A DNA stretch of 64,000 nucleotides, taken from Thermococcus stetteri (GTDB taxonomy: Archaea; Methanobacteriota_B; Thermococci; Thermococcales; Thermococcaceae). Both the position numbers and the translations under genes were made by a program. The DNA lies in contig NZ_JAGGKB010000004.1 of NCBI RefSeq assembly GCF_017873335.1, positions 1 to 64,000 of the forward strand, written 5' to 3'. Of the stretch, positions 3,949 through 39,457 are shown in pieces. Under the pieces are notes generated by a model, which had not been told where the DNA came from, ran no database searches, and saw only the letters and a program-made list of their open reading frames with translations. The first letter of the stretch is position 1. Each line of letters opens with the position of its first letter.

Positions 3949-3957
3949 GTATAAAAA
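3949..3957 (-). promoter_or_regulatory. TATA box of the rubrerythrin operon
   Basis: Minus-strand TTTTTATACC lies about 45 nt upstream of the rubrerythrin start. The 8 bp just upstream (AAACATTT on the minus strand) are the duplicated target of the composite transposon, so the position of the archaeal BRE is at the insertion boundary. Confidence 0.6.
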
Positions 3958-3962
3958 TGTTT
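3955..3962. repeat. 8-bp target-site duplication, left
   Basis: AAATGTTT immediately precedes the outer terminal inverted repeat (CGCTCATCTA) of IS1595 copy 1. The identical octamer follows the outer end of copy 2 at 7625-7632. Eight base pairs is the duplication length known for the IS1595 family. Confidence 0.85.
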
Positions 3963-4815
3963 CGCTCATCTAGGTATTCTGGTTGATATTAGTTCTGGGA
4001 ACCACCCCCACCTGTTATTCAAAAGCAACGCCAGAAAGTCCAAATAACCCTGCAACTCAAGCTGGCACACGATACTTCCTCAGATAAGCCCTCAGAAAAC
4101 CATGCCTGTTCTCACAACTGTTAACATGCTCACAACGTGCAAACTCCCTTTCAGAATGATTAACCCGCTCATGAGAACTGATAACCCCCAAACCCTCCCT
4201 CAGAGAATCATAAATGGAATACTCGTCAGTAAAAACCTTCAGTTCGCCCGCAATCAAATTTCCAACCCGCTGCTTGAGTTTCTGAGGAAAATCCCGCAGA
4301 TTCTCAAAGACAAGAAAGAGAACTTGCCCTGTTCTTCGAGCCACGAGAGTCGCGTGCGGGTAAACTTCGTCAATTTCAATAACATCCTCCAGCCTGACTT
4401 TAGAGTTTCCGGCTATCCTCTGCACTTCGTGGACGAAGTTTAGGACTGCTTGGTAGTCCCTGTTGAGTTCTTCTGAGATTAGTTTGGTGCTTTTGTGTGG
4501 CATTGACCCGTTAAGTCATTTCGTTGATTGGGAATTTGCGGTGGTCGAATATTGTGCCTGTTAAGTCGTTGAAGTGTTTTCTGCAGTTTTTGCAGTGGTA
4601 TTTCTGGGCTCTTTTCGGTGTGTGTCCGTTTTTCTGGATGTTTTTACTGTCGCAGTATGGGCAGGTTACTCCGTCTGGCCAGCGGATTTGTCTGATTGTC
4701 CTGTAACACTCTTCTGGGTCTGGTAAGAATAATCTTCGGGCGATTATGTCGTTTGTAATTACCCCTGTCATGAAGAAAACTTAAAAACCTTTCAGTCACA
4801 ATAAGTAGATGAGCC
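3963..4815 (-). mobile_element. IS1595-family element, copy 1 (defective)
   Basis: An 853-bp copy with imperfect terminal inverted repeats: CGCTCATCTAGGTATT at the left and, read inward from the right, GGCTCATCTACTTATT. Compared with copy 2 it has an in-frame loss of about 93 bp just after the first catalytic Asp region, a rearranged stretch near 4500-4520 that breaks the frame, and altered sequence near 4055-4070 that truncates the C terminus. Confidence 0.85.
3966..4771 (-). pseudogene. IS1595-family transposase, copy 1, broken
   Basis: The N-terminal segment (4511-4771) holds a zinc ribbon with CPYC and CKNC and ends prematurely after FPINEMT. A second segment (4057-4503) has the ISXO2-like DDE domain: EIDEVY with the first Asp, FTDEYSIYDSL with the second, and HVNSCENRHGFLRAYLRKYR with the HxN...E signature. 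It stops early after KYRVPA where copy 2 continues for about 30 residues. The basic linker expected after EVYPHA is missing. This copy cannot make a normal transposase. Confidence 0.85.
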
Positions 4816-4830
4816 TAAAATAAACGGAAA

Positions 4831-5007
4831 TCACTCGGCGGGAGCATAATAGCATCTCTTCGGAGAAATTATTTTTCCTTCCTTTTTGAGCTTTTTAATG
4901 ACTTTATCTACCTCTTTCTTGTCAATTCCAGCCAGTTCAGCTATTTCAGCGCTTTTTAAGGGTCTTCCTGCTTCTTTTAAAACTTTGAAAACCAACTCCT
5001 CGCTCAT
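4831..5007 (-). CDS. Small winged-helix DNA-binding protein (58 aa)
   Basis: A compact helix-turn-helix protein: SEELVFKVLKEAGRPLKSAE, then a recognition-helix region (AGIDKKEVDKVIKKLKKEG), then a wing (KIISPKRCYYAP). The start at 5007 is preferred because AAGGTGATGG lies 4-8 nt upstream; earlier GTG and ATG codons sit inside that sequence. It resembles archaeal single-domain wHTH regulators. It lies in the transposon cargo, downstream of gapN on the same strand with an 82-nt gap. A role in controlling gapN is possible but not shown. Confidence 0.75.
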   Translation of the reverse strand: MSEELVFKVLKEAGRPLKSAEIAELAGIDKKEVDKVIKKLKKEGKIISPKRCYYAPAE

Positions 5008-5089
5008 GGCCATCACCTTAAAATTTGCATTAAAAATTAAATCTTCGAACTTATAAAGTTTTCAGTTCAAAACAAAAGAGGGGAGAAAA

Positions 5090-6610
5090 TCAAAGGTACT
5101 CCCACACACCGTAGCCCTTGAAGTTGTGCACTATCGTTTTTGTTGTTGTAAGTTGCTCGACAGAGTAGCCTATGCCCTCTCTTCCCACACCGCTGTCCTT
5201 CATGCCTCCAAAGGGGTAGTAGCCTATCCCGTGCCTCGGGTACTCGTTGATGAAGACGCTCCCAACTTCAAGCTTTCTCGCAACCTTCCTTGCCCTCCTC
5301 TCGCACTCGCTGAAAACAGAAGCATCCAGTCCAAAGCGGGAAGAATTAGCTATGGCAACTGCCTCGTCTTCATCCTTGACCTTGATAAGTAGGGTGAGCG
5401 GGCCAAAAACGTCCTCTTGAAAGGCCCTAAGCTCTTTAACCTTCTCTTTGTCCACTTCAAGGAGTACTGGCCACACATAGTTGCCCTCTCTTTTGAATCC
5501 GGTCAAAGGCTTCGCTCCCTTCTCTATGGCGTCTTTGTAAATCTCTTCAATATAATCCGCAGAATGTTTGTCAATAAGGGGCCCCATTACAGCGTTTTCA
5601 TCCTCTAAGGGGTTTTTGGGTTCTATCTCTTTCAGCTTTTCGAGAATCTTTGCTTTTAACTCTTCATAGATTTCTTCCTGAGCTAAGATGAGCCTTATTG
5701 CATCGCATCTCTGACCGGAGTAGCTCACCATGCCCTTAATGATTTTTTCACTCGCAAGCTCTAAATCCGCATCATCCAAAACTATCGCAGGGTCTTTGCC
5801 GCCAAGCTCAAGGTGGTAGGCTTTTATGCCGCCGGTCTTTATGATGTGCTCCCCAACCTCTGTGCTTCCGGTGAAGGTTATGGCCCTTATACGCTTGTCC
5901 TTTACCACATCATCCATGAATCTTCCAGGTATTGTTAGGAGGGCAAAGCTCTCCTTAGGGAAGCCCGCAAGTTCTAAGACCCTGATGAAGAGAAGTGCCG
6001 CAAGAGGATCTGCGGAAGCAGGTTTTAACAGCACAGCATTTCCACTGAAAAGGGCGGGTATTACCTTTGTGGCAGAGATGAACAGCGGATAATTGAATGG
6101 ACTTATTGCCAAGATAACTCCATATGGTTCCCTTTTTACTATTCCCTCACTCTCGAGGGTCTCTTCACTCCAGTCTCCGGGGATGTAATCACCAAGCATT
6201 CTCCTTGACTCAAAGGTAGTTTTTTCGAGCCTTTCAATGGTGGCTTTTGTTTCCCCAGTTGCATTGCTCTTTGGCTTGCCGGCATCGAGGATTAGAACTC
6301 TTACGAAGTCGTCAAAGGCCTCCCTCATTAATTGTGCCGCCTTTAAAAAGCTTTCTATTCTCTTTTCTCCAGGATAGTTCCTTATTTCTTCTCTTCCTTT
6401 TTCATAAACTGTGGAAAGAATTTCCTCGATTTGTTCCTTGCTGAGCCTTGAAACCCTTGCTATAATGCTGCCATTTATAGGGCTCCTAATATCGGAAAAA
6501 CTTTCTCCAAAGACCCACTCCCCAGCGGCGTAGGTCTTAAATTCGGGGACACCATCTTCGCCAATCCTGTATATCTCATTAAAGATTTTGTCATGGACAA
6601 GTTTGTCCAT
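5090..6610 (-). CDS. gapN: NADP-dependent non-phosphorylating glyceraldehyde-3-phosphate dehydrogenase
   Basis: 506 residues of the aldehyde dehydrogenase superfamily, strongly resembling Thermococcales GapN, which oxidises glyceraldehyde-3-phosphate to 3-phosphoglycerate in the modified Embden-Meyerhof pathway. Visible landmarks are the cofactor-binding region (SPFNYPLF, KPASADPLAA), the Gly motif FTGSTEVG, the general-base Glu in LELGGKDP and the catalytic Cys in YSGQRCDA. The gene is intact. By eye its codons look more AT-rich than those of nearby core genes. It is the main cargo of the composite transposon. Its TATA box (TTTTATAGG) lies within about 10 bp of the inner end of IS copy 2, so its upstream control region is IS sequence. 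Confidence 0.9.
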   Translation of the reverse strand: MDKLVHDKIFNEIYRIGEDGVPEFKTYAAGEWVFGESFSDIRSPINGSIIARVSRLSKEQIEEILSTVYEKGREEIRNYPGEKRIESFLKAAQLMREAFDDFVRVLILDAGKPKSNATGETKATIERLEKTTFESRRMLGDYIPGDWSEETLESEGIVKREPYGVILAISPFNYPLFISATKVIPALFSGNAVLLKPASADPLAALLFIRVLELAGFPKESFALLTIPGRFMDDVVKDKRIRAITFTGSTEVGEHIIKTGGIKAYHLELGGKDPAIVLDDADLELASEKIIKGMVSYSGQRCDAIRLILAQEEIYEELKAKILEKLKEIEPKNPLEDENAVMGPLIDKHSADYIEEIYKDAIEKGAKPLTGFKREGNYVWPVLLEVDKEKVKELRAFQEDVFGPLTLLIKVKDEDEAVAIANSSRFGLDASVFSECERRARKVARKLEVGSVFINEYPRHGIGYYPFGGMKDSGVGREGIGYSVEQLTTTKTIVHNFKGYGVWEYL

Positions 6611-6656
6611 TTGTAATCACCGATATATACTATTGCACATACCTATAAAAGGTTTT

Positions 6657-7624
6657 CGCTCATCTAGGTATTCTGGTTGATATTAGTTCTGGGAACCACC
6701 CCCACCTGTTATTCAAAAGCAACGCCAGAAAGTCCAAATAAGCCTGCAACCACCTGAAACTAACACCACGATACTTCCTCAGATAAGCCCTCAGAAAACC
6801 ATGCCTGTTCTCACAACTGTTAACATGCTCACAACGTGCAAACTCCCTTTCAGAATGATTAACCCGCTCATGAGAATTAATAACCCCCAAACCCTCCCTC
6901 AGAGAATCATAAATGGAACACTCGTCAGTAAAAACCTTCAGTTCTCCCGCAATCAAATTTCCAACCCGCTGCTTGAGTTTCTGAGGAAAATCCCGCAGAT
7001 TCTCAAAGACAAGAAAGAGAACTTGCCCTGTTCTTCGAGCCACGAGAGTCACTACCGGCGGTTTTCCGGACTTTGCAGTTCCCCTGCCACGCTTGTGCCT
7101 GCCTCTCCGCCTGGGACTCTTTTTTTAAAGCCTTTACTGCCGGCGTGCGGGTAAACTTCATCAATTTCAATAACATCCTCCAGCCTGACTTTAGAGTTTC
7201 CGGCTATCCTCTGCACTTCGTGGACGAAGTTTAGGACTGCTTGGTAGTCCCTGTTGAGTTCTTCTGAGATTAGTTTGGTGCTTTTGTGGGGCATTGACCA
7301 GATTATGTAAAGCATTTCGTTGATTGGGAATTTGTGGTGGTCGAATATTGTGCCTGTTAAGTCGTTGAAGTGTTTTCTGCAGTTTTTGCAGTGGTATTTT
7401 TGAGCTCCTTTCGGCGTGTGTCCGTTCTTCTGAATGTTTTTACTGCCGCAGTATGGGCAGGTTACTCCGTTTGGCCAGCGAATTTGTCTGATTGTCCTGT
7501 AGCATTCTTCTGGGTCTGGTAGGAATAATCTTCTGGCGATAACATCGTTTGTGATTACCCCCGTCATGTTGAGTACTTAGGAAGAAAACTTTAAAGCCTT
7601 TCAGTCACAATAAGTAGATGAGCC
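6657..7624 (-). mobile_element. IS1595-family element, copy 2 (near full length)
   Basis: A 968-bp copy with the same terminal inverted repeats as copy 1 (CGCTCATCTA at the left, GGCTCATCTA read inward from the right). It carries a full set of transposase motifs, interrupted only by one frame change at an A7 run. Its outer end is followed by the AAATGTTT target duplication. It is the most complete of the four copies in the window. Confidence 0.9.
6660..7567 (-). CDS. IS1595-family transposase in two frames joined at an A7 run
   Basis: Frame one (7567 down to 7052) has the zinc ribbon (CPYC...CKNC) and the first catalytic Asp (EIDEVYPHAGSKGFKK). Frame two (to 6660) has VTLVARRTGQVLF, the second Asp (FTDECSIYDSL) and HVNSCENRHGFLRAYLRKYR. 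At TTT AAA AAA AGA a -1 step restores the basic linker KKSPRRRGRHKRGRG that the IS1595 fold expects between them. With that step a protein of about 300 residues results. The A7 could be a programmed slippage site or an inactivating indel; the sequence alone does not decide. Confidence 0.75.
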
Positions 7625-7632
7625 AAATGTTT
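7625..7632. repeat. 8-bp target-site duplication, right
   Basis: AAATGTTT directly follows the outer end of IS1595 copy 2 and is identical to 3955-3962. Removing 3963-7632 would restore a continuous sequence upstream of the rubrerythrin TATA box. Confidence 0.85.
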
Positions 7633-7780
7633 TCACAACATCCATAGCGTTCTCACCGGCTCTAATAAGAGGTTAGACCAGACACCCTCAGCCTAATGCA
7701 ACCACACCCTGAAAAGGTTAGGAAACTACTCTGGGCGTATCCCTTAAAAAGAGCCGTGCGTCATACCTCCCGGTGGTACT

Positions 7781-8065
7781 ATGAAGTTCCTCAAGGAGAT
7801 CAAAGACGGAGTTCTGCTCCTGATCTACGTCCAGCCGAAGGCAAAGAAGAACGCGGTTGAAGGTGTTGACGAGTGGCGTGGAAGGCTAAAGGTCAGGATA
7901 GCGGCCCCACCAGTTGAGGGCAAAGCCAACAAGGAGGTTGTGAAGTTCCTCTCAAAGCTCCTTGGAGCTGAAGTCAGCATAGTAACGGGAGAGACTAGCA
8001 GGGAGAAGGATCTCCTTGTGAGAGGACTGAGTGCTGATGAGGTAAAGAAAAAACTGGGGGTTTAG
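7781..8065 (+). CDS. DUF167 / YggU family protein
   Basis: 94 residues with the family signature: YVQPKAKKNAVEG near the N terminus, then KVRIAAPPVEGKANKEVVKFL, then VTGETSREKDLLV. The function of the family is not firmly established. GGTGGT lies upstream of the ATG, and a TATA-like CCTTAAAAAG lies about 40 nt upstream. The 3' end overlaps the convergent gene at 8062 by 4 nt. Confidence 0.9.
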   Translation: MKFLKEIKDGVLLLIYVQPKAKKNAVEGVDEWRGRLKVRIAAPPVEGKANKEVVKFLSKLLGAEVSIVTGETSREKDLLVRGLSADEVKKKLGV

Positions 8066-8391: not shown

Positions 8392-10113
8392 TTATCCAAA
8401 AGCATTGCTTAAAGCATCCTTTAGAGTTTCAAAATATTTGAAGCCTTCTTTTTGAGAGGGTTCCACAAAGGTATTTTCTCCAAAGTCATTCCAAGTGTCA
8501 ACCCGTATAAAAGTCGTATACGCCAGGGAATTCAAAATCCTTTCATAAAACTGATTTTCATCCCGTGGTAATCCAACGTCTCTGTAGTAGTATTTAAACC
8601 CTGGAAAAACGGATGCCACATATTCAAGCCCCTGGCTTTTTGCAAATTCTGACCATAGTTTATTCATTCTAAAGAACGCCTCATTTGGGTTATTCAAATA
8701 AGAATAATTCTCCCGCGCAATTTCATTACCAACGAATCCAACCCAGGTGGAAATGGCATCATACTTACTTAGATCTTAGATCTTTTAACTTAAGCAGGTA
8801 CTGCATTTCTTCTGGCGATACCACACCATGAACAATATCCCCTAAGATATACAGGTCTCTTGTTCTCTTAACCTCATCCCAGGCGTTAGATTCATTTATA
8901 AAAACTGCAGCACCATAAATGAATATAACCGGCTTACCTTTTATCCTAAGTAGTTGGGATGATCAAGTAAGCTAGAATTGATTATGGTTTTTAATTGGTT
9001 TATGAACGTCTCAGAATTTTTGGGATTGGAGAGATCTATAGTCCATTCAGGGGCACCCTCTGCTGTGCCCCGATCGAAGTAATCACCCCACGCATACCAC
9101 ATAAATGCACATTTAATCCCCTTATCCATCAAACTTTTCATTATTGCACCTTCGTCTCCATGTATTTTCCAGTTTTCCCATGCACCAGCATCAACGAAGA
9201 AGACGTTTATCCCGTGCCCCGTGGCCCAATCAACGTGTTTATACAGAACTACTTCATCAATTGGGCCTATAGGTAGCATAACGTACCTTCCAAGAAGGGG
9301 CAGGTCATCTGTCGTTTTCCCAAATATAAAAGGTTGATAACTCGACATGTACGAAGCAGCCACGATTATTCCCTTTTCATACAACTCTTTTCCAAAGTTC
9401 TCGTACTGTCTTATGTAGGGTGTTTTGTACTCAAAAGTTCTCTCATTTCCGGATTTATCCCTGACGGTTATAACTATCCTGTACTCACCCCCACCAGTTA
9501 TGTTCGTAATGTTAACGGAGAATTCCTCCTTCAACTCATCAAATTTCCATCAAGAGGCTCTAAAACATAAGTTCGGTTATCATTAACGTTTGGAAACACT
9601 TTTGGATAGTCTTCCGGCCTCATTCCATACTTAGTGATGAAATAATCGTATTTTACCGGAATAAACCTCAGTTCGGCGTATTTTATTGGTGATTTATCGT
9701 CCTCTACCGTGAAGTTGACCTGAATGTCGTAAATCTTATCCCAAACAACCCTCGCTGGAGCCCAAGTAAAGTCCTCCTATTTTCAGCGGTTGCACCTCAA
9801 TGTTTGAGCTGTGAGTGTCGATGCTCGATGATGTTGTGGTGCTTGCGGGGGAAATGCAACCGCTTATGACCACCAACAGAACAACAACGATAAGGGGCAC
9901 CACCTTTTTTAAAGGGGGAGAAGTCCGGGTGGTTCTTACCCTTTGTTTAAGCTCCCAAAAGATCAACGAGAACAGACCAATGCCAACGCCGCTGTAAAAC
10001 ACATCCTCCCCCAATATACTACAATTACAGACTCTCACAAGCCCCAAAATCAGAAACCCACTCAGAGTCATCCGCACAAACCACGGCGGGGGATTCGTTA
10101 GCTTCATCTCCAT
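8392..10113 (-). pseudogene. GH99/GH71-like lipoprotein, decayed by three frameshifts
   Basis: Joining three frames gives one extracellular protein. The N-terminal part (9736-10113) has membrane segments, then a lipobox-like VVLLVVISGC and a Ser/Thr-rich linker; a frame change follows near 9770. The middle part (8941-9534, open further upstream without an ATG) contains WATGHGINVFFVDAGAWENW and MWYAWGDYFDRGT. A second change at about 8945 and a third at a 7-bp tandem duplication (TAGATCT twice, near 8770-8783) lead to the C-terminal part with RVDTWNDFGENTFVEPS. These aromatic/acidic motifs resemble GH99/GH71-like (endo-mannosidase-type) enzymes. The N-terminal hydrophobic part may be a separate small gene fused by loss of the lipoprotein start. 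Confidence 0.7.
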
Positions 10114-10258: not shown

Positions 10259-11263
10259 CTACTTCAGAATCCCCAGACTCTTGTTCGTCTTCCTTATGCT
10301 ATCCCACCTGTCGGCGAGCTCGAACATGGCCCTTATGGCATCGACGTTCTCTGGAACGACGTCGCTCTCCTGGTGGACGGCCTGAATGTAAAAGAGCCTG
10401 TTGCCCTTAACGGAGATGCTCTCCCTCCACACGGCAATCTCGTAGAGGTTGTTCCACTCGCGGTGCAGGTCTCTCGCGAACTCTATGAGCTGGGCCGTGC
10501 TCTCGAAGCCCTTCTCCTTCTCGAAGAGGAGAACTCTCGTTGTGTTCTCGAATATGTCTATCACGTCTTCCCTCGTTATCGGCTTCTTGAGCTCGATCAT
10601 GACCGAGTGCACGTGCATGAGAGTGGTTGGAACGACGAAGGCCATCGTCTCGATGTTTATCGGGATCACCGTCTGGACATCTGGCCCGTGGTGGGACGGA
10701 ACGGTTACGCTCGGAGTTATCGCGTTGATCGGACCCCTCTTCGAGTCGTTCGGGTCCGCGGCTCTCCTAATCATCACGGCGTAAACGTAGTCTATGTACT
10801 CCTGAAGGGCTGAGAGCGTTCTCGTTAAGCCCGTCGTGTTGCAGGAGACGACCCTAACGTAGTCCTTTCCGAGTGCCTTCTCGTAGTTGGCCTGGGCAAC
10901 GAACGATACTTGAGCGACTTCTGCCTTCTCACCGCCCTGGAAGATCGCTTTGACTCCAGCCTTCTCGTAGAGGGCCTTGTTTTTCGCCCCCATTCCCCCA
11001 GGTGTTGCATCAACGATTATGTCAACCTTCTCCAAGAGGTCGTTGAGCGTTCCAGCAACCTCAAAGCCGGCCTTCTCGAACCTCGGTAAGAATTCCTCGC
11101 TCGCGGCGTAGACCGGAATGCCCCTCTCCCTCGCCATGTACGCCTCAAAGTCCGGCTTCGTCTTGGTTACGCCGATGAGCTCCATATCGTCCTGCCTGGA
11201 GACGGCGTAGGCAACGCGCTTTCCAATTGTTCCGTAGCCGTTTATCCCGACTTTCACCTTCAT
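10259..11263 (-). CDS. gap: Phosphorylating glyceraldehyde-3-phosphate dehydrogenase
   Basis: 334 residues of the archaeal GAPDH type, which acts mainly in gluconeogenesis in Thermococcales. The N-terminal Rossmann motif is [15 protein letters not shown], the catalytic Cys is in SCNTTGLTR, and the C-terminal archaeal-type signature [15 protein letters not shown] is present. The ATG at 11261-11263 gives the normal family start and has GGGTGG upstream; the longer frame begins inside the promoter. A perfect palindrome (11308-11326) lies just upstream of the TATA region. Confidence 0.95.
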
Positions 11264-11287
11264 GCTACCACCCGATAGTTTTACAGC

Positions 11288-11302
11288 CATAAAATACTTA
11301 AG
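11288..11302 (-). promoter_or_regulatory. Core promoter (BRE/TATA) of gap
   Basis: Minus-strand CCTTAAGTATTTTATGG contains an A/T-rich TATA element, 25-40 nt upstream of the gap start codon. The palindromic operator lies 5 bp further upstream, the position expected for an activator site. Confidence 0.5.
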
Positions 11303-11307
11303 GCTTG

Positions 11308-11326
11308 TTTTCACCGGCGGTGAAAA
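11308..11326. promoter_or_regulatory. Palindromic operator resembling the Thermococcales glycolytic motif
   Basis: TTTTCAC-CGGCG-GTGAAAA is a perfect 7+5+7 palindrome. The known Thermococcales glycolytic motif, bound by the TrmB-type regulator Tgr/TrmBL1, has the form TATCAC-N5-GTGATA. The TCAC-N5-GTGA core and 5-bp spacer match, but the outer bases differ. Sites upstream of BRE/TATA are known to activate gluconeogenic genes, which fits gap. Confidence 0.6.
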
Positions 11327-11423
11327 GTAACATAACCAGGAACACATTTTTACACCGGCAAAGCAAATAAAGTCAGAAAATTATTAGGGCTTCTTAAGCG
11401 TTTTGAAAAGCTAAAAAGGCCAA

Positions 11424-22628: not shown

Positions 22629-23373
22629 ATGTCAAAAAAGGAGATAATCCTTGGTCTCACACTAGCAATATTTTGTGCCATAGTTATAATAATCGGTACC
22701 GAGACTTGGAACTTCCCATACTGGCTACTTGGAGTTCTTATTGGATTATCGCTATTAGTACTATCCATTACTAAATCTAACTGGAAAATAAAAGACTGGT
22801 ATACGTTCATAATCTCATCATTAACAATCTCACTTGTGATTCTAATTGCATATTGGATGGGATGGACGATTAATCCTAAAGAAAAAGGTTTATCCAAATG
22901 TAAGCGATATTATCTTAGGGTTATCTGCAATAGCAACGGTATTAATGGTGTTCTATGTGGCAATGCAAACCCAAGCTACTAAGGAATCTATTGAGGAAAT
23001 GAAGACACAGAGGTTGATTAATGTTATATTGCCTGCATCCAGTATGTTACTTGAGATTAAGGATCTCATTAAAGACAAGGAAGAATGCCTTAGGGGTCGG
23101 GAAGATGTTTGGGGGGATGCACCTTGGAGGGATAGTACCTTTGGCCAATTGAGAGATTTGAAAGAATGCCTAAAAAGGTCCGAGTTGACATTCGTTGCTT
23201 CGTTAATCCCAGAACGTAGATTATACCAAGCTCTAGAAGAGTATCAAACCACTATTATCTCCCTCAGGGAAGCTTATGGTAAACTGTCCTACGTTCTAGA
23301 TACAAATCCTAAAGTTTCAGAGACCATTCACACAATTATGATAGAGAGCAATGTGAAAATAAAAATGAAAAAC
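22629..23373 (+). pseudogene. Membrane protein, frameshifted and truncated by an IS1595 relic
   Basis: The first frame (from 22629) starts MSKKEIILGLTLAIFCAIVI and has three or four membrane spans up to WMGWTINPKE. At an A-rich run near 22880 the frame changes, and the continuation (KKVYPNVSDIILGLSAIATV, then a coiled helical region ending near NVKIKMKN) lies in the next frame. It runs directly into the IS1595 copy at 23373, so the native C terminus is lost. The layout (membrane spans plus a helical cytosolic domain) is like the protein at 18319-19056. I do not recognise the family. Confidence 0.7.
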
Positions 23374-23839
23374 GCTCATCTAGGTATTCTGGTTGATATT
23401 AGTTCTGGGAACCACCCCCACCTGTTATTCAGAATCAACGCCAGAAAGTCCAAATAACCCTGCAACCACCTGAAACTAACACCACGATACTTCCTCAGAT
23501 AAGCCCTCAGAAAACCATGCCTGTTCTCACAACTGTTAACATGAACCTCACCACGCGCAAACCCCCTCCCAGAATGATTAACCCGCTCATGAGAACTGAT
23601 AACCCCCAAACCCTCCCTCAGAGAATCATAAATGGAATACTCGTCAGTAAAAACCTTCAGTTCGCCCGCAATCAAGCTACTCCGTCTGGCCAGCGGATTT
23701 GTCTGATTGTCCTGTAACACTCTTCTGGGTCTGGTAAGAATAATCTTCTGGCGATAACATCGTTTGTAATTACCCCCGTCATGTTGAGTACTTAGGAAGA
23801 AAACTTTAAAGCCTTTCAGTCACAATAAGTAGATGAGCC
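23373..23839 (-). mobile_element. IS1595-family element, copy 3 (internally deleted)
   Basis: A 467-bp copy with both terminal inverted repeats (CGCTCATCTAGGTATT at the left; GGCTCATCTACTTATT inward from the right). The transposase start (minus strand from 23781) runs to RQIRWPDGVA and then joins directly to LIAGELKVFTDEYS, losing the zinc ribbon and the first catalytic Asp. The same join, GGAGTAGCTTGATTGCGGG, is in copy 4. The flanks show no 8-bp direct repeat. The right end lies 25 bp before the unknown gene at 23865. Confidence 0.85.
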
Positions 23840-39061: not shown

Positions 39062-39457
39062 GGCTCATCTACTTATTGTGGTTGAAAGGTTTTAAGTTTT
39101 CTTCCCGAGTATTAGATTATGACAGGGGTAATTACAATCAGACAAATTCGCTGGCCAAACGGAGTAGCTTGATTGCGGGAGTTTACTGACGAGTGTTCCA
39201 TTTATGATTCTCTGAGGGAGGGTTTGGGGGTTATTAATTCTCATGAGCGGGTTAATCATTCTGGGAAAGAGTTTGCACGTTGTGAGCATGTTAACAGTTG
39301 TGAGGACAGGCACGGTTTTCTGAGGGCTTATCTGAAGAAGTATCGTGGTGTTAGTTTCAGGTGGTTGCAGGGTTATTTGGACTTTCTGGCGTTGATTCTG
39401 AATAACAGGTGGGGGTGGTTCCCAGAACTAATATCAACCAGAACATCTAGATGAGCG
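39062..39457 (+). mobile_element. IS1595-family element, copy 4 (internally deleted, inverted)
   Basis: A 396-bp relic in the opposite orientation to copies 1-3, with both terminal repeats (GGCTCATCTACTTATT at the left; CGCTCATCTAGATGTT inward from the right). It shares the internal deletion join GGAGTAGCTTGATTGCGGG with copy 3. It has two further small deletions: one in the N-terminal coding part and one right after the join. The transposase tail (FTDECSIYDSL, HVNSCEDRHGFL, then to RTSR) is still legible. The flanks have no 8-bp direct repeat. Confidence 0.85.

Follow-up and report, generated by a model that had tools for sequence, protein, structure and literature searches.

A gapN gene of foreign origin between two IS1595-type insertion sequences with an outer 8-bp repeat in Thermococcus stetteri: a probable composite transposon

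How did the gene of a glycolytic enzyme come to lie between two insertion sequences in a hyperthermophilic archaeon? The question is raised by a block of 3662 bp in the first 64,000 nucleotides of contig NZ_JAGGKB010000004.1 of Thermococcus stetteri (the whole stretch of DNA analysed here, referred to as the window). Two IS1595-type insertion sequence (IS) copies, A and B, stand in the same orientation and enclose a 1841-bp segment, the cargo, which holds a small winged-helix-turn-helix (wHTH)-like gene and gapN, encoding a predicted non-phosphorylating glyceraldehyde-3-phosphate dehydrogenase (GAPN). An earlier, sequence-only reading had described two IS1595 copies around a wHTH gene and an intact gapN, with AAATGTTT directly outside both outer ends and unmatched inner flanks, and all of this proved exact to the base (Table 1); the inner 8-mers are TAAAATAA and AAGGTTTT. 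Foreign cargo, exact boundaries, an outer 8-bp repeat and an intact gapN frame are directly observed. The block is probably a composite transposon of the pseudo-compound kind, in which two directly oriented ends enclose a wHTH-gapN segment that stems from another genus; it would have moved as a whole.

The evidence for a foreign cargo came from a comparison set of 94 genomes of the family, with genus labels g1, g4, g2 and the rest; the present genome is G000, and G080 belongs to a different genus (g4) of the same family. We take G024 to be T. kodakarensis, G077 T. litoralis, G078 T. sibiricus and G002 Palaeococcus pacificus. The cargo is 97.8% identical to G080 from end to end, and the match stops exactly at the inner IS tips. 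By comparison, the ordinary genes lhr and GAPDH are 72 and 77% identical between G000 and G080, and the lhr/GAPDH region of the window is 87–90% identical to G024 and G028. The 61-aa open reading frame (ORF) adjoining gapN in G080 is identical to the wHTH-like ORF of the window. In a protein tree of gapN (24 rows), G000 pairs with G080 (support 99/98), within the g4 rows and apart from G024; the fork uniting the whole of g4 (82/87) bears no star, and midpoint rooting served only to draw the tree. The G+C content of the cargo (44%) equals that of the G080 locus, against 45–46% in the IS copies and 50–51% in the flanks. Judged by these sequence comparisons, the cargo is foreign and derives from genus g4, from species G080 or a close relative. 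Because the cargo so exceeds ordinary genes in identity, and because of the pairing in the tree, an IS-bounded gapN block from g4 very probably entered this genome.

The same span, 4816–6656, is matched in three further genomes (G076, G081 and G084) at 75–91%, and the match to G078 extends from 4816 to 6629. Matches in G074 and G077 begin only at ~5082; G079 and G075 carry the wHTH part separately from gapN. In G080, G076, G081 and G084 the sequence continues beyond both cargo boundaries, with no IS match beside gapN within 1.2–1.5 kb on either side. No match to the block was found in plasmid and phage collections that might point to a vehicle; 19 viral stretches matched the pattern of the first frame of copy B, and none of them encoded a relative.

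The outer 8-mers match at 8 of 8 positions, whilst the inner 8-mers differ. For one named pair of 8-mers, the probability of a chance match is ~1.7e-4, a figure based on the composition of the flanking 8-mers (18 in all, including the matching pair itself). Amongst all 81 left–right pairings of nine copies from G000 and G080, only the left side of A with the right side of B gave 8/8. An exchange of repeats between copies was also considered; the next best two pairings (7/8, each a G080 left with a G000 right side) were taken as chance. The block has three marks of a composite (pseudo-compound) transposon: two IS copies of the same family around a cargo, a duplication at the outer ends only, and a cargo foreign to its site.

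The gapN frame, 506 codons long, is intact and matches the GAPN model over its full length. Its closest solved chains, 1uxv (PDB, E 6.4e-151) and 1ky8, are glyceraldehyde-3-phosphate dehydrogenases named NADP+-dependent. The gene is a predicted archaeal gapN, and the enzyme activity is likewise predicted. It is the only gapN in the genome by both protein search and GAPN model, and the window also encodes a phosphorylating type II GAPDH (10259–11347). The sequence-only reading had asked after a second gapN and after gapN at other places in relatives; the first is absent, and G024 carries gapN at another location (68% identical). Relative to G080, gapN shows 37 changes, of which 32 are silent and 5 are replacements (replacement rate, dN, 0.004; silent rate, dS, 0.104). 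The gene looks to have been kept by selection, and some or most of this pattern may stem from the history of the donor.

The block could have been assembled as follows. In the donor lineage, one IS would have inserted just behind the wHTH gene and a second just upstream of the gapN promoter; by eye, the cargo has retained a TATA-like stretch, and IS B lies directly upstream of it. DNA carrying the block would then have entered the ancestral line of the present genome. There, as the repeats suggest, a transposase may have worked on the outermost pair of ends and placed the whole 3662 bp at AAATGTTT, in front of the rubrerythrin gene, with a duplication of this 8-bp target.

Several observations weigh against transposition of the block as a unit. 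On their sequences, A and B belong to different subtypes, unlike a freshly copied pair of one IS. Their identity is 92% across the first 110 alignment columns, 96–99% across columns 111–600 (deletion excluded), and 89–93% and finally 78% as the right end is approached. Neither transposase is whole: copy A lacks ~92 bp of the transposase middle and smaller pieces, and copy B has one frameshift, its two frames scoring 97.5 bits against the IS1595 model (cut-off 75) when joined as one protein. The zinc ribbon exceeds the PF12760 cut-off in both copies, and the DDE pieces taken alone fall below cut-off. The copy C7 of the same genome is further damaged and the copies in G080 and G011 are broken too; no IS1595 transposase as found in the DNA exceeded the model cut-off in any of the 94 genomes. 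IS-like DNA was present in 13 of them, almost full length only in G000, G080 and G011, and no IS was found beside gapN in other genomes amongst the gapN loci with 1.5-kb flanks. A perfect 8-bp repeat was seen at none of the 14 other two-ended IS copies. Those of G000 (C7, C1 and two in the window) and G080 (three) agree at 1–3 of 8 positions, those of G011, G003 and G093 and two in G083 at 3–5, and one copy each in G083 and G029 at 7.

The insertion site adds to these points. The left AAATGTTT belongs to the rubrerythrin upstream region, and the corresponding native sequence reads TATAAAAATGTTT in G042 (L089), TATAAAAACGTTT in G069 and TATAAAAATATTG in G024 and G028. When the TATA region of rubrerythrin was sought automatically in 30 loci, six gave a hit, ours amongst them and one (L094) probably at a different place; of these six, to which the result is confined, two contain AAATGTTT, again counting our own. 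An uninterrupted empty site is expected to read TATAAAAATGTTTTCACAAC, and none was found in relatives. When both flanks joined by one AAATGTTT were compared with 30 rubrerythrin loci (29 relatives and our own), only the left side matched; the right flank (7625–7785) occurs in 1 of 94 genomes, our own. The empty-site comparison proposed with the sequence-only reading thus met a right flank present in no other genome and flanking genes far apart: rubrerythrin and DUF167 are separated by ~69 kb or more in the 28 relatives that have both on one contig. DUF402 and DUF167 are neighbours in G024, G028 (with DUF402 split by a frameshift) and G042. In the present genome they are parted, the best DUF402 match (73% identical) lying on another contig (G000:C1:349158-349649) and the DUF167 side at 7633–8065 of the window. 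Since these neighbours have been parted here, the insertion site is near a rearrangement. Thermococcales chromosomes are reported to invert often, according to the available part of PMC5495485. Further along the window, the minus-strand ORFs at 8392–9534 resemble pieces of one broken gene; the ORF at 8392–8697 has weak glycosyl hydrolase 71/WbsX matches below cut-off, and that at 8941–9534 has none.

The subtype difference between A and B makes recombination a real rival to transposition of the block. A lone IS may have been present at AAATGTTT first, and incoming DNA with gapN and an IS, for example a circle, may then have recombined into it, so that the block itself never transposed. Such recombination would yield identical outer repeats. 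The claim that IS-gapN-IS entered as one unit is partly supported, by the outer repeat, the foreign cargo bounded to the base by the IS tips and the single gapN of the genome; the repeats are also what recombination would leave. The IS copies are mosaics, which makes recombination amongst them probable and keeps this alternative alive. The right third of B shows no difference from the resident C7 (100% over three segments, of 99, 85 and 77 columns), whilst B and C7 are only 88% identical across columns 111–200, and the right end of A has a 13-base gap (against B) in common with the copies G080 m1744 and mC1. Broken transposases would also suit an IS that no longer moves itself. Against this, A and B would each resemble one subtype at both ends in the absence of a crossover, such that mosaic parents are needed, and no relative with a lone IS was seen. 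We consider recombination into a resident IS improbable, yet substantial enough to be carried alongside the composite transposon, which we continue to prefer.

A third explanation holds that the 8-bp match arose by chance and that IS-mediated rearrangements brought together the flanks, the foreign gapN and the IS copies, with no unit involved. The separation of the flanking genes in relatives, the lack of perfect repeats at other copies and the A/T-rich flanks, which increase random matches, are in keeping with this scenario. The low chance probability for this particular pair argues against it, as does a cargo that stops exactly at both IS tips; furthermore, conservation with relatives on the DUF167 side begins at ~7766–7785, some 135–150 bp from the block end and not at the block end itself. 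Chance assembly is very unlikely.

Contamination by G080-like DNA was unsupported for the single 4.5-kb stretch examined: the rest of the G080 gapN locus finds its matches elsewhere in G000, at no more than 74 and 66%, so this stretch is not present as contamination. An assembly artefact, in which IS repeats misjoined contigs or donor DNA contaminates the assembly, is hardly credible: the contig begins only 3.9 kb away and IS copies are repetitive, but the listed contamination is 1.05%, the G080 gapN neighbours are absent at high identity, some genome must truly hold the IS–cargo junctions, and the differences between A and B suffice to tell the two apart. The gapN of G080 is flanked by a VIT1-rubrerythrin gene (L013:99-1199) and a rubrerythrin gene (L013:3163-3696). 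The block in our genome also adjoins a rubrerythrin, yet the best match of the G080 neighbour is at C4:116154, another place.

The terminal inverted repeats CGCTCATCTA/TAGATGAGCC are found at A and B, and with small changes at other copies. Miniature copies of the IS in two genera have an internal deletion with an identical joint (GCAATCAAGC/TACTCC). The shared joint suggests that a derivative of the IS resembling a miniature inverted-repeat transposable element is common to both genera. Table 1 lists their positions with the features of the block.

Table 1. Features of the IS-bounded gapN block and positions of miniature IS copies (window coordinates unless a genome is named)
Feature	Position	Strand	Evidence or remark
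Left copy of 8-bp target duplication AAATGTTT	3955-3962	.	Upstream of rubrerythrin; read directly
IS copy A, IS1595-type, internal deletion, 853 bp	3963-4815	-	Tips, alignment
Copy A transposase fragment, catalytic part	4057-4503	-	NF033547 50.5 bits, under cut-off 75
Copy A transposase fragment, zinc ribbon	4511-4771	-	PF12760 36.9 bits, cut-off 25.4
Foreign cargo, ends exactly at inner IS tips	4816-6656	.	97.8% to G080
61-aa wHTH-like gene	4831-5016	-	Weak Pfam HTH matches, all under cut-off
gapN, predicted non-phosphorylating NADP-dependent glyceraldehyde-3-phosphate dehydrogenase	5090-6610	-	NF040869 852.3 bits, cut-off 780
46 bp upstream of gapN, TATA-box-like stretch (by eye)	6611-6656	-	Near-same sequence in G080
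IS copy B, IS1595-type, almost full length, 968 bp	6657-7624	-	Tips, alignment
Copy B second transposase frame, after frameshift	6660-7052	-	NF033547 49 bits alone
Copy B first transposase frame	7052-7567	-	PF12760 41.3 bits, cut-off 25.4
Right copy of 8-bp target duplication AAATGTTT	7625-7632	.	Read directly
Miniature IS copies	23373-23839, 39062-39457; G000:C1:851641-852089; G080:C1:1748850-1749311		

The distribution of gapN was obtained twice, by protein and by GAPN model, with the same 25 genomes containing any match. The gene exceeds the GAPN cut-off in 19 of the 94 genomes and is split in two more (G077 and G001), and the remaining four have short remnants (G007, G011 and G027) or a distant relative (G060). 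By genus, the 21 genomes with an intact or split gene comprise 10 of 61 in g1, 9 of 13 in g4, 2 of 3 in g2 and none of the other 17. The split copies are those at L024 (G077) and L029/L040 (G001), and the end remnants those at L034–L036 (G007, G011 and G027); together they suggest that gapN also decays. On the starred branches of the tree, the label must have changed four times or more for g1 and twice or more for each of g4 and g2, so gapN has passed between genera or been unevenly lost on more than one occasion. The available part of PMC5412457 describes GAPN as apparently universal amongst the hyperthermophilic archaea examined to date, and as glycolytically essential in T. kodakarensis. 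Universal presence is not borne out for this family by our searches. The sequence-only reading had presented gapN as a central, essential gene carried as cargo; essentiality in that one species agrees with the cited source, and the patchy distribution leads us to regard the description as overstated.

It is tempting to speculate that gapN, alone or together with the adjoining wHTH-like gene, is a travelling glycolysis module amongst Thermococcaceae genera, carried by small IS-built transposons, with gain and loss explaining its patchiness and the present locus being the one case caught early enough to reveal the carrier. We hold this wider idea to be doubtful, if conceivable. In the locus itself, a glycolytic enzyme gene of hyperthermophilic archaea appears to have crossed genera within a block bounded by IS copies, and the donor lineage, the cargo ends and the insertion repeat are all readable. 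Given that GAPN is reported to be glycolytically essential in T. kodakarensis (available part of PMC5412457) yet is missing from most of the family genomes searched, the locus offers a natural test of the effect of gaining gapN in an archaeon that also has a phosphorylating GAPDH.

We found no publication on gapN as transposon cargo in the literature searched, in which subscription journals were thinly covered. As an archaeal GAPN (NF040869; 1uxv, 1ky8) the enzyme is of a known kind, and only its carriage is unusual here. Carriage of cargo between two directly oriented IS1595-family copies has a bacterial counterpart in Tn7560, a pseudo-compound transposon of Actinobacillus pleuropneumoniae built from ISApl4 (IS1595 family). 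As described in the accessible text of PMC12561309, ISApl4 makes A/T-rich 8-bp repeats, and cargo between two direct copies was transferred by natural transformation. Tn7560 carries resistance genes and its IS has signs of activity (circular forms, inverse PCR), whereas the block described here is archaeal, carries a metabolic gene and has damaged transposases. A closer precedent is the 16-kb maltose/trehalose (mal) region of Pyrococcus furiosus, which is bordered by IS copies and which T. litoralis has in common with it (DiRuggiero et al. 2000, via the available portions of PMC6640164 and PMC2246101). There too, according to the same portions, sugar-metabolism genes are near-identical across two Thermococcales genera, are flanked by IS copies and were read as the result of transposon-mediated transfer. 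Set beside the mal region, the present block is 3.7 kb long and holds one glycolytic enzyme gene and a small wHTH-like gene; its IS is of IS1595 type, and both the 8-bp repeat outside it and the precise ends of the cargo are legible. What we add to the sequence-only reading is the broken transposases, the subtype difference between A and B and the match of the enclosed segment to another genus. The kind of element is already known, with a precedent from the same order in print in the mal region, and the attraction of the present locus lies in its clean ends and its cargo.

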